In this document: positions 5,426 to 33,324 of the stretch, piece after piece
Position numbering within the stretch: position 1 is the stretch's first letter
Layout: every line of letters begins with the position of its first letter
Assembly (NCBI GenBank): GCA_903915955.1
Contig: CAIWUU010000079.1
Coordinates: 1 to 54,129, forward strand
Reading direction: 5' to 3'
From: an uncultured Chlorobiaceae bacterium
GTDB taxonomy: Bacteria > Bacteroidota > Chlorobiia > Chlorobiales > Chlorobiaceae
DNA: 54,129 nucleotides
The notes under the pieces: model-generated
What the model saw: only the letters and a program-made list of their open reading frames with translations
Told to the model about the DNA's origin: nothing
Databases searched by the model: none
Made by a program: the position numbers and the translations under genes

Positions 5426-5498
5426 GGGGCTATAGCTCAGTTGGTAGAGCATTTGCATGGCATGCAAAGGGTCAGGAGTTCGAGTCTCCTTAGCTCCA
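5426..5498 (+). tRNA. tRNA-Ala (anticodon GGC)
   Basis: A complete 73-nt cloverleaf can be drawn. The acceptor stem GGGGCTA pairs with TAGCTCC with one G-U pair. The D arm is GCTC/GAGC. The anticodon stem is TTTGC/GCAAA around the loop ATGGCAT, giving anticodon GGC (alanine). The T arm is AGGAG/CTCCT with loop TTCGAGT. The discriminator base is A, and a full CCA end is not encoded. A terminator follows a few bases downstream. Confidence 0.97.
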
Positions 5499-6991: not shown

Positions 6992-7870
6992 TCACTCCTG
7001 CTCCTTCATCAGGGAATAACGAATATCCGCCAGCTCTTTGAGCCGTTCTTCACTCGCCGCAGGATAGGACAAGCCAAGCTCGCTCAACGAGTGAACAATA
7101 ATCTGTGACACAATTAATCTGGCATTCTGTTTGTCATCTGCCGGAACGATATACCACGGCGCATGTTTGGTACTTGTAGCAATGAAACAGGCCTCATAAG
7201 CCTGCATATAGTGCTTCCAGTATTGCCTCTCCTCAATATCACTGGCACTGAATTTCCAATTTTTCTCCGGTGCATCAATGCGAGCCAGAAATCGTTTCCG
7301 TTGTTCTTCTCTTGAGAGATGAAGAAAAAATTTAATAATCCTGGTTCCATTACGGTGAAGGTGGCTTTCCATATTAACAATCGACTGATAACGCTCTTCC
7401 CATACTTTTTTCCCGTTAATCAATCGATCCGGCACACCCTGCATTGCAAGTATTTCCGGATGTACGCGAACAATAAGCACCTCCTCGTAATAGGAGCGGT
7501 TAAAGATACCGATACGGCCACGCTCCGGAAGACAACGGTTGCTCCTCCAGAGAAAATCGTGATCAAGCTCTTCCGCAGATGGATGCTTGAAACTGAAGAC
7601 CTGACACCCCTGAGGATTGATGCCGGACATCACATGCCGGATAATGCCATCCTTGCCAGCAGCATCCATTGCCTGAAAAATCAGCAAGAGAGAATAACGG
7701 TTATCAGCATAGTGAACCTGCTGCAATTTACTTAACTGCTCCACATGGTCAGAGAGCATCTCCTTGTACTCTTGTTTGGAGCTGTACACCGGATCAACAA
7801 GTGTCGGACATTCGTCAAGATTTACCGACTCTCCTTCACGAATCCGCAGAGCATCATGGTCAAAGCGCAT
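6992..7870 (-). CDS. Polyphosphate kinase 2 family protein
   Basis: PPK2 enzymes move phosphate between polyphosphate and nucleotides. The 292-residue single-domain protein has a Walker A loop DAAGKDG (GKDG at 72-75), followed by [12 protein letters not shown], and the Walker B-like [13 protein letters not shown] around 120-132. Other family motifs are [24 protein letters not shown] and WYIVPADDK. These fit the group that phosphorylates AMP and/or ADP at the expense of polyphosphate, but the exact class cannot be set by eye. It is probably monocistronic. The start at 7870 is an ATG ([10 protein letters not shown]). Confidence 0.9.
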
Positions 7871-7909: not shown

Positions 7910-7949
7910 TTTTAAGTAAATTTTAAGCTTCATCTCAGGCTGCTTTAAG
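7910..7949 (+). promoter_or_regulatory. Phased 11-bp direct repeats, probable OmpR-family operator
   Basis: TTTTAAG occurs at 7910-7916 and 7921-7927, and CTTTAAG at 7943-7949. The start-to-start distances are 11 and 22 bp. The skipped position at 7932-7938 holds a weaker copy, ATCTCAG. OmpR/PhoB-type regulators bind direct repeats spaced one helical turn apart. A TTTAAG-N5-TTTAAG arrangement closely resembles PmrA-type boxes. A possible -10, TATAAA, is at 7975-7980, so the repeats sit just upstream of the -35 position. The site precedes the DUF4405/response-regulator/kinase genes, suggesting autoregulation. Confidence 0.55.
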
Positions 7950-8029
7950 AATCTCCATGCTACATTGGAAGCAGTATAAAACGAATAACGACACCGAAAA
8001 ATACTTAAATTCGAAAATATCGAGATATT

Positions 8030-8560
8030 ATGAGCACTTCAATCAAATCGTGGGCAACCCCTCTTGCGGTAGGGGCATTTACTATTTCCGCAGTCACCGG
8101 CCTCCTGATTTTTTTTGATATTGAAATCGGCCTGGTTGAACCAACACATAAATGGCTGAGCTGGTTTCTTGTCTGCGGTGTCGCTCTCCACGTCATCTCT
8201 AACTGGAAACAATTTACCTCCTATTTTTCAAAAAAGCCTGCTATCGGAATTATCGGAGCAGCGCTCATCGTCACTATTGCTGCCGTACTGCCAATATTCG
8301 GTGAAGAAGAGGAAAAAGAGAATCCGGCAAAGATGGCGGCATACGCTCTTGCATCATCCTCAATTGAGACTGTTGCCCTGGTTGTGAAAACCACACCGAT
8401 GGCTCTGGTTGAACAACTCGGAAAAAAGGGAATTGTTGTCAATGATCCAGCAGCAACTGTTGAACAGATCGCAAAAAGCAATGGAAAAGAGGCAAAAGAG
8501 GTTCTTGGTGACATTTTGGCCAGCACCAAGGGTACAGCAAAAAATGATGATAAAGATTAA
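8030..8560 (+). CDS. DUF4405 membrane protein
   Basis: The 176-residue protein has three predicted membrane segments (about 10-28, 41-58 and 70-90) and a charged C-terminal part of about 85 residues. The first two segments, with H40 (PTHKW) and H54 (ALHVISNWK), are the DUF4405 pattern, related to cytochrome b-type membrane helices, so haem binding by these histidines is possible but unproven. The soluble tail (AATVEQIAKSNGKEAKEVLGDIL) looks helical. The response-regulator gene starts 18 bases downstream, so it is likely cotranscribed and may be a target or accessory sensor of that system. Confidence 0.8.
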   Translation: MSTSIKSWATPLAVGAFTISAVTGLLIFFDIEIGLVEPTHKWLSWFLVCGVALHVISNWKQFTSYFSKKPAIGIIGAALIVTIAAVLPIFGEEEEKENPAKMAAYALASSSIETVALVVKTTPMALVEQLGKKGIVVNDPAATVEQIAKSNGKEAKEVLGDILASTKGTAKNDDKD

Positions 8561-8578: not shown

Positions 8579-9256
8579 ATGAGACTTCTCATTATTGAAG
8601 ATGAGCCAGGAATAGCCGGATTTCTGAAGGATGGACTTGAAGAAGAGTACTTTGCTGTGGACCTCGCTTATGACGGCAAAAGCGGACTGGATATGGCTCT
8701 GACCAACGACTATGATCTGCTTATCGTTGACTGGATGATTCCCGCCTTGAGCGGTATTGAGGTTTGCCGGCAGGTGCGCAAAGCCGGCAGCCTGGTACCA
8801 ATTCTCTTTCTCACGGCAAAAGATACCCTTGAAGATGTCGTCTTCGGCCTGGATGCCGGAGCGAATGATTACATAAAAAAGCCCTTTGAGTTTGAAGAGT
8901 TGCTGGCACGGATCAGAGTACAGCTCAGAGCGAAAAACAAGGCTGATGATTCATTAAGCGCCGGAAGCCTCAACATCAATCCGGCCACCCATCAGGTGTT
9001 CGCCGGTTCATGCGAAATAACCCTGACTCCAAAAGAGTTTGCCCTGCTGGAGTACCTGATTCGGAACAAAGACAGGGTATGTACCAGAAGCCGCATCATT
9101 GAACATGTCTGGGACATCCATTTTGACTCAGACACCTCGGTGATTGATGTCTATATCACCTTCTTGCGCAGGAAACTTGAAGCTGCCGGTTGCGGAAACC
9201 TTATCCAGACAATCCGGGGTGTTGGCTATATTGTCCGTGAACCCGGAATGTTATGA
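8579..9256 (+). CDS. OmpR/PhoB-family response regulator
   Basis: The 225-residue protein has an N-terminal receiver domain with the acidic pair in IIEDEP, the phosphoacceptor D51 (LLIVDWMIPALSG), T in LFLTAKD and the lysine in YIKKPFEF. A C-terminal winged helix follows (LTPKEFALLEYLIRN, then TSVIDVYITFLRRKLE and TIRGVGYIVRE). It overlaps the kinase gene by four bases (ATGA), which makes the two a cognate pair. The phased repeats upstream of the operon are a plausible binding site. Confidence 0.95.
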   Translation: MRLLIIEDEPGIAGFLKDGLEEEYFAVDLAYDGKSGLDMALTNDYDLLIVDWMIPALSGIEVCRQVRKAGSLVPILFLTAKDTLEDVVFGLDAGANDYIKKPFEFEELLARIRVQLRAKNKADDSLSAGSLNINPATHQVFAGSCEITLTPKEFALLEYLIRNKDRVCTRSRIIEHVWDIHFDSDTSVIDVYITFLRRKLEAAGCGNLIQTIRGVGYIVREPGML

Positions 9257-10719
9257 AAAAATCTCCTTTTAAAGGGCCGTCGGTGATGAGTTTGCGAAAC
9301 CGGATAGCATTCTACTACACCATAGCCACAGCCTTTTTAATTGCCATAGTCTTTACAACCATCTTCTTTATGGTTGAGAAAATCGTCTACAAACAATTCG
9401 ACGATCAATTAAAAAAAGAGATTTCAGAAATTTTTGCCGACTCAAATATATCCCCGAATAATTTTCAGGGATTTGATGACTTCAAGAATAATATTGATGC
9501 TGAGGAAGGAGGTAATGATAACGACCATGAAAGAAAACACAAGAATAACAAGCTGAAGGTTGATACCGAGTTTATCCAGCTTGTTAACACTAGCGGCGAG
9601 GTTATCAATAAATCTGCCAGCCTCTCATGGTGTATACTTGCATTTAATCCAAACCAGTCGGGAGCTTCCTACTTCAACAGCAACTTTGGAGGTTCAATGG
9701 TGCGGCAGGCTCAGGTGCCTCTTACCAATCAACAGGGTGTAACAGAGGGATATCTCATTATTGCCGTTCCCCTGAAAAATGCACTCATCGTTCTGCATGA
9801 CCTGCGCGACATTTTTCTCTTTTCATTTCCCGTTATACTTCTTCCGCTTTTTCTCCTCACACGCTCAATTGCCATCAAAAGTATCAGACCGATAGAAAAG
9901 GTTATTGCTACGGCTGAAAAAATGTCGCAAAGCAATCTTGACCAACGCATTCCCCTCCCTTTTCATCACGATGAATTATATCGATTGGCGGCAACCATCA
10001 ATGCCCTTTTTGACCGTATGCAGGATGCGTTTCAACGTGAAAAACACTTTACCGCAGATGCTTCGCACGAGTTGAAAACTCCACTTGCGGTGGTCAAGGG
10101 GACTCTGGAAGTGCTGATCCGCAAACCACGGGAACGAGAACATTACGAAACAAGAATTCAGTTCTGCCTCAAAGAGCTGAACCGGATGGCCGGTCTGATT
10201 GATCAGTTGCTGATGCTTGCCCGATACGAGAGTAACAAGATGACACCACACATTATGGTAACAGCTCTCTCTCCTCTTGTTGAAAATGTGGTAGAGCGCA
10301 TGATTCCGACAGCAAGGACAAAAGGCATTGCAATCACCGTCGATCGGGCAGACAACGCACACATTGCTGCCGACCCAGGAATGCTTGACATGATCCTCGA
10401 AAATATTATATCGAACGCCATCAAATACTCTTCATCCGGCTCCTCAATAGCAATAGAGGTTAAACAAAACGCAGACAACGTTATCTGCAGCATCAGCGAT
10501 CAGGGAATCGGCATCCCTGAAGAGATGCTGAATGCCATTTTTGAACGGTTTTATCGAGTCGATGAGTCAAGAAGCTCGAGTACCGGAGGGCTTGGGCTCG
10601 GGCTCTCTATTGTAAAAAAACTTGCCGATCTGCAGCAGATAAAAGTAACAGTAACAAGCGCGACAAACAGGGGAACAACATTTACCCTCACCTGCCCAGC
10701 AGCTCATAACATCTGCTAA
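9253..10719 (+). CDS. Membrane sensor histidine kinase
   Basis: This 488-residue kinase has membrane segments at about 20-41 and 186-205 flanking a periplasmic sensor of about 145 residues. A HAMP linker follows (about 203-255), then a HisKA domain with H272 in FTADASHELKTPL, and an ATPase domain with N, G1 (DQGIGIPEE), F (FERFYRVD) and G2 (GGLGLGLSIV) boxes. The sensor has an acidic, charged patch at about 81-97 (IDAEEGGNDNDHERKH) that could bind a cation; this is inference. It overlaps the regulator gene by four bases. An internal ATG at M12 is an alternative start. Confidence 0.94.
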   Translation: MKKSPFKGPSVMSLRNRIAFYYTIATAFLIAIVFTTIFFMVEKIVYKQFDDQLKKEISEIFADSNISPNNFQGFDDFKNNIDAEEGGNDNDHERKHKNNKLKVDTEFIQLVNTSGEVINKSASLSWCILAFNPNQSGASYFNSNFGGSMVRQAQVPLTNQQGVTEGYLIIAVPLKNALIVLHDLRDIFLFSFPVILLPLFLLTRSIAIKSIRPIEKVIATAEKMSQSNLDQRIPLPFHHDELYRLAATINALFDRMQDAFQREKHFTADASHELKTPLAVVKGTLEVLIRKPREREHYETRIQFCLKELNRMAGLIDQLLMLARYESNKMTPHIMVTALSPLVENVVERMIPTARTKGIAITVDRADNAHIAADPGMLDMILENIISNAIKYSSSGSSIAIEVKQNADNVICSISDQGIGIPEEMLNAIFERFYRVDESRSSSTGGLGLGLSIVKKLADLQQIKVTVTSATNRGTTFTLTCPAAHNIC

Positions 10720-32550: not shown

Positions 32551-33324
32551 TTACTTGACGAAAAGCTCTTCTGCAAAGCTGAACCCTACACCAAACACAG
32601 TTTTTATAGGAGACGAACCATTGATGTCTATTTTCTGGCGCAGGCGGTGAACCAATGACTCAAGTGCTCGCTTGCCGTATTCGTTATACTCATAATCGAG
32701 AATACTCATTATCTCTTTACGATTAATATTTTTATGGCTATTCGAAATAAAACAATTCATAAATTCAAACTCTTTTGAGGTGAGCTTGATCATCTTGCCA
32801 TCCGGATTATAAAGAGACCACTCGGCACAATCAAGCTTCCACAGCCTTTTATTCTTTGCCGATACAAATTTGGCTTCACTTGCCCGTAGTTGCTGCTGAG
32901 AAGTTTGCAGAACGATGTCACACCGTCTTAAAAGATTACTGATTGAAGCTGAAAGCTCCCGGAAATCGACCGGTTTCACAAGGTATATATCGGCTCCGGA
33001 GTTGTAGCCAGCAAGTTTGTCTTCAATCGTTGCATGTCCGGTTAACATGATAATCCGCAAATCCGTATTGTTTCGTAAGTATTCGCAGAGTGCAATTCCA
33101 CTCTGGTCAGGCAAGCCGATATCGAGAATTGCAACCTGATAAGAGTATATTGCAAGATGCTGATAGAACTCCAACGCTGAACCAACTCCCGTCACCTCAT
33201 ATCCAATAAACGTCAGATATTTCACTATACAGTTACGAATAGGCAAGTCATCCTCTGCAATGATCACCCTACCAGTTAGAGGCGCTTGTGGATTGCTTAT
33301 AACCATGAGTGAAAATTTAGGCAC
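32551..33324 (-). CDS. OmpR-type response regulator
   Basis: The 257-residue protein has a receiver domain with the acidic pair in IIAEDDLP, phosphoacceptor D68 (VAILDIGLPDQSG), T in IIMLTGH and K117 (IYLVKPVDF). A linker of about 35 residues follows, then a winged-helix domain (about 165-255; LTSKEFEFMNCFISN, RALESLVHRLRQKID, TVFGVGFSF). GTG at 33324 is taken as start because GGGTGG lies nine bases upstream; an ATG at 33306 is the alternative. It follows the hybrid kinase on the same strand and is its likely partner, though the kinase also carries its own receiver. Confidence 0.92.
   Translation of the reverse strand: MPKFSLMVISNPQAPLTGRVIIAEDDLPIRNCIVKYLTFIGYEVTGVGSALEFYQHLAIYSYQVAILDIGLPDQSGIALCEYLRNNTDLRIIMLTGHATIEDKLAGYNSGADIYLVKPVDFRELSASISNLLRRCDIVLQTSQQQLRASEAKFVSAKNKRLWKLDCAEWSLYNPDGKMIKLTSKEFEFMNCFISNSHKNINRKEIMSILDYEYNEYGKRALESLVHRLRQKIDINGSSPIKTVFGVGFSFAEELFVK

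Follow-up and report, generated by a model that had tools for sequence, protein, structure and literature searches.

Positions 7911–7966 of the 54,129-nucleotide contig analyzed here (CAIWUU010000079.1, hereafter the window), from an uncultured Chlorobiaceae bacterium, very probably hold an autoregulated operator for an OmpR-family activator, fused to the promoter that it controls and forming the core site of a regulon; binding and activation are deduced from sequence comparison. The site consists of four head-to-tail half-sites and a −10 element in front of an operon for a DUF4405 membrane protein, a response regulator, and a sensor kinase. The host is a member of the Chlorobium group, in line with its earlier placement among the green sulfur bacteria.

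Read directly in the window, TTTAAG hexamers start at 7911, 7922, and 7944, and a degenerate TCTCAG starts at 7933. The resulting half-sites 1 to 4 (7911–7916, 7922–7927, 7933–7938, and 7944–7949, all on the plus strand) follow one another in steps of exactly 11 bp, about one helical turn, which bears out the 11- and 22-bp spacings and the degenerate copy in the gap reported in a preliminary description. Of the three TTTTAAG heptamers described there, the first two (7910–7916 and 7921–7927) are as given, but the copy at 7943–7949 reads CTTTAAG; the hexamer TTTAAG is identical in all three. ATT precedes half-site 1, the spacers are taaat, cttca, and gctgc, and aatctccatgc leads from half-site 4 to TACATT (7961–7966, plus strand), a probable −10 element lying 11 bp past half-site 4. 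Half-site 4 adjoins or overlaps the expected place of a −35 element, and the promoter has no consensus −35 of its own. Both this −10 element and the fact that the complete array recurs in the genome and the genus had been missed. The candidate operator unit is four half-sites with a fixed −10, rather than two or three half-sites.

The repeats are confirmed as a real feature. The heptamer TTTTAAG by itself is about as frequent in the window as expected (10 copies versus 9.4), and this count is uninformative; the unusual feature is the register of the hexamers. When the 159-bp intergenic region was shuffled 20,000 times with its dinucleotides preserved, three TTTAAG in 11-bp register never appeared, and two appeared in 7 shuffles; TTTAAG-N5-TTTAAG has a single exact occurrence in the whole window. 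When one mismatch was allowed in the 17-bp pair, the host's own genome gave 16 matches versus 29 for the reversed control; only exact in-register pairs and the full array are informative. An Rfam search of the window identified a tRNA gene (5426–5498, plus strand) and no RNA family near the array, and a terminator-like match at 8058 is within the chance rate.

The three operon genes lie downstream on the plus strand. The first (8030–8560) encodes the DUF4405 membrane protein (PF14358, 28.1 bits against a cut-off of 26.7), in which His40 and His54 are invariant; its structure model has a mean pLDDT of 65 and a pTM of 0.32. The second (8579–9256) encodes an OmpR/PhoB-family response regulator with a REC domain (PF00072, 96.4 bits), a winged-helix Trans_reg_C domain (PF00486, 92.5 bits), and the recognition helix VIDVYITFLRRKL; this cognate regulator is the proposed binder of the array, and its start lies 630 bp beyond the end of the array at 7949, the distance originally noted. 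The third (9253–10719) encodes a sensor histidine kinase with HAMP, HisKA, and HATPase_c domains and a predicted PAS-like extracytoplasmic domain. In the model of this sensor domain (pLDDT 69.7) an acidic loop is poorly modeled, and the best structural match, which is PAS-like and to WalK, is too weak for naming a ligand. On the other side of the array, a PPK2-family ADP-polyphosphate phosphotransferase gene (6992–7870, minus strand) is transcribed divergently. Elsewhere in the window, a second, divergent OmpR-type response regulator (32575–33200, minus strand; PF00486, 48.9 bits) directly follows a same-strand histidine kinase with its own C-terminal receiver domain.

Conservation was assessed at orthologous loci from Chlorobium, Chlorobaculum, and Pelodictyon records, C. 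ferrooxidans among them. The 61 DUF4405 loci from named genomes and the window made 62; after removal of four proteobacterial loci and one that was cut off, 57 were usable. The array lies within about 400 bp upstream, in 11-bp register, in 53 of these 57 chlorobial loci, and the comparison of orthologous operons proposed at the outset thus came out in favor of the repeats. Across the 53 loci, half-sites 1, 2, and 4 carry on average 1.56, 1.45, and 1.67 bits of information per base, and the weakly conserved half-site 3 carries 0.87; the spacers hold 0.6–0.9 bits and the 30 bp of upstream flank 0.20. Per-base conservation at half-site 1 is 0.87–1.00, and half-site 4 is the most conserved of all. 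TANNNT follows half-site 4 at exactly 11 bp in 52 of the 53, nearly always as TACATT, TACCTT, or TACTTT. Four loci (L246, L236, L248, and L252) have no array within 400 bp: L252 is a second paralogue, no array was located for L236 and L248, and L246, on the same contig as L030 (Pelodictyon luteolum CIII, G025), has its array further upstream. At this L030/L246 locus a gene for a BOF-domain (YgiW-like) protein is placed between array and DUF4405, about 630 bp upstream of the latter. YgiW/CarO-type proteins also accompany the QseBC and CarRS systems.

The same array recurs well beyond the operon. TTTAAG pairs in six genomes show sharp peaks at spacers of 5 and 16 (19/90 and 23/90), and the full pattern TTWAAG-N5-TTWAAG-N16-TTTAAG-N11-TAC, with two mismatches allowed, gave 149 matches in 38 Chlorobium genomes versus 1 for the reversed pattern. 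Positions outside the search pattern are conserved too: among 95 arrays away from the operon, the unconstrained half-site 3 has the consensus nTTaAg (T 0.82, T 0.99, A 0.52, A 0.86), the last −10 base is T in 0.99, and TANNNT stands at +11 in 87. The host's own genome carries full-pattern arrays at C79:7911, C145:325, C176:17647 and 20041, and C78:2907 and 5107.

The gene downstream of each array was picked mechanically. The families led by arrays include TlpA/AhpC-TSA-type periplasmic thiol proteins and thioredoxins (27 together), Zn-ribbon proteins (16 cases, followed in the host's own genome by Fib_succ_major, cation-efflux, and TPR genes), large secreted repeat proteins (9 cases), and ferric-reductase-like membrane proteins (7 cases, followed in the host's own genome by a multiheme cytochrome). 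Fib_succ_major proteins also recur among the downstream genes, as do DUF3570 proteins, TPR proteins, and thioredoxin reductase, and there are single cases of ApbE, a cupredoxin, and a P-type cation ATPase. Four short reading frames that cluster together (CL7) are probably the Zn-ribbon gene read in the wrong frame. The array at C145:325 precedes a second, short DUF4405, a paralogue of about 70 aa (G000:C145:325–672, L083) with a TGA stop shortly past the second predicted membrane helix; other Chlorobium genomes hold related short DUF4405 matches with a similarly placed stop and arrays of their own. The arrays of thioredoxin and Zn-ribbon genes (L141, L147, L150, L155, and others) often have TTTAAAG for half-site 4 and TATATT as the −10, possibly marking a different affinity class or regulator. 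The best reading of this distribution is that the array serves as the core site of a Chlorobium-wide regulon of thiol-redox, heme/electron-transfer, metal-transport, and envelope genes.

Attribution of the array to the operon regulator draws mainly on two genomes, G018 and G022, and on co-occurrence. In G018 (99% complete), the orthologue of the operon regulator is the only PF00486 match, yet three arrays are present; G022 (96% complete) has neither regulator orthologue nor array, and in G013 (85% complete) arrays are present and the regulator was undetected. Among 24 genomes outside the genus, no regulator orthologue exceeds 49% identity, and the array search returned 2 poor matches versus 9 for the control. 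All 47 orthologues have a near-identical recognition helix, VIDVY(I/V)(T/N)FLR(R/K)KL. We consider it very improbable that a genuine array is read by another regulator, such as a PhoB-like paralogue, with the neighboring regulator merely one of its targets. Direct-repeat binding is general among OmpR-family regulators, the host's own genome encodes three PF00486 proteins besides the operon regulator (four in all), and most genomes carry others. Against such a paralogue stand G018, with three arrays and no second PF00486 protein, the different helix of the PhoB-like paralogues, TIDTHITR[IV]REKL, and the joint absence of array and operon regulator from G022 and from outside the genus. Five genomes (G016, G005, G032, G006, and G061) have a second copy of the regulator at 63–67% identity, and in G005 and G032 an array lies directly before a second kinase gene.

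The repeats had been likened to PmrA-type boxes, CTTAAG-N5-XTTAAT (PMC3973317). The likeness holds for the head-to-tail half-sites 5 bp apart, the TTAA core, and the use of an OmpR-family regulator (PMC3973317), but the exact box is that of CiaR and the closest architecture that of BqsR. The CiaR box of streptococci is TTTAAG-N5-TTTAAG (PMC3091779), identical to the operator sequence here, and a fixed −10 distance and a modest regulon are common to both systems (PMC3091779). CiaR boxes lie 10 bp from TATAAT, whereas here 11 bp lead to TACATT; four half-sites are the rule here, the targets differ, and CiaRH is reported from streptococci only. The CiaR helix, VVEVYVSK(V/I)RKKL, compared with VIDVYITFLRRKL, has 6 of 13 positions identical and 6 conservative, with Lys replaced by Phe at position 8. 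The BqsR/CarR operator of Pseudomonas aeruginosa is TTAAG-N6-TTAAG (PMC4682146), with the same spacing and core as the array. BqsR activates the native PA14_04180 promoter, where the last of four pentamers covers the −35; the third and fourth are critical, and the first two contribute additively (PMC4682146). The array shares this cluster-of-four organization. The two systems differ in their neighboring genes and in the kinase: BqsS has an RExxE Fe(II) motif, which the window kinase lacks and 7 of 47 orthologues have.

Family models place the regulator apart from these systems. With the PmrA equivalog model NF007928 (cut-off 330), the window regulator reaches 154.5 bits, and the best NCBIfam match of both regulator and kinase is to the CzcR/SilR/CopR heavy-metal type (TIGR01387) at 224.9 and 249.1 bits, under the curated cut-offs of 279.2 and 292.6, respectively. 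By these scores and comparisons, the box would be classed as a CiaR/BqsR-type operator in an array that resembles BqsR clusters more than PmrA boxes, and the regulator, by family, as none of CiaR, BqsR, PmrA, or CzcR.

In the proposed mechanism, the phosphorylated regulator would bind as two head-to-tail dimers, with all four TTTAAG-type half-sites facing the same side of the helix. Half-sites 3 and 4 would place their dimer where a −35 usually lies, from where it would recruit RNA polymerase to the −10 element TACATT and so turn on the operon for DUF4405, regulator, and kinase in a positive autoregulatory loop; the same promoter module would drive a small genus-wide regulon. The fixed −10 spacing argues for activation. 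Repression with negative autoregulation is very improbable: a protein bound beside the −10 could also block polymerase, but there is no consensus −35, and the constant 11 bp from half-site 4 to the −10 match the layout of promoters that CiaR and BqsR activate. The signal for the activator is a guess: it would be periplasmic, possibly a divalent cation or redox stress, with the acidic-loop PAS-like domain of the kinase and the list of targets together pointing to stress of a metal or redox kind.

Where the regulator and DUF4405 genes do not stand together, the array accompanies either one. Three genomes (G017, G030, and G008) have the regulator without DUF4405 and retain the array in front of it, and in G005 and G032 only short DUF4405 remnants separate the two. 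Ten DUF4405 loci without a nearby regulator also retain the array. Its persistence with the regulator after loss of DUF4405 fits the predicted autoregulatory loop, which stands as one part of the picture only, since several other families of genes have this array in front of them as well. That the array instead serves the divergent PPK2 gene is highly improbable. It occupies the intergenic stretch between PPK2 and DUF4405, PPK2 is the neighbor at 34 loci, and the stretch contains a minus-strand promoter-like match, weak and no better than chance; however, in the 16 array-bearing DUF4405 loci from which PPK2 is absent, the spacing between array and DUF4405 start is conserved, and the half-sites and −10 point towards DUF4405. 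The PPK2 gene is best described as a neighbor. The notion of functionless chance repeats in AT-rich DNA, which the ordinary frequency of TTTTAAG would by itself allow, has a negligible probability in view of conservation, register, genus-wide recurrence, and controls.

To our knowledge, few transcriptional circuits have been defined in green sulfur bacteria, and a literature search of open-licence papers found no description of this system or of a Chlorobium two-component regulon in these organisms. A broader proposal, which we offer tentatively and regard as possible though rather unlikely, is that the system acts in Chlorobium as the main regulator of metal/redox stress at the envelope: its acidic loop would sense a divalent cation in the periplasm, for example Fe(II), it would drive the genus-wide regulon from a stereotyped four-half-site promoter without a −35 of its own, and it would have come to use the operator that CiaR uses in Bacillota and BqsR in Pseudomonadota. 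This is a third bacterial phylum for the TTTAAG-N5-TTTAAG operator, and the recognition helix is again similar. The array defines a regulon at the sequence level, for which promoter, binder, and target genes are predicted, in a genus that includes Chlorobium ferrooxidans. Its main value is the genus-wide regulon that it reveals, in which an uncharacterized sensor system appears to run a whole gene program.
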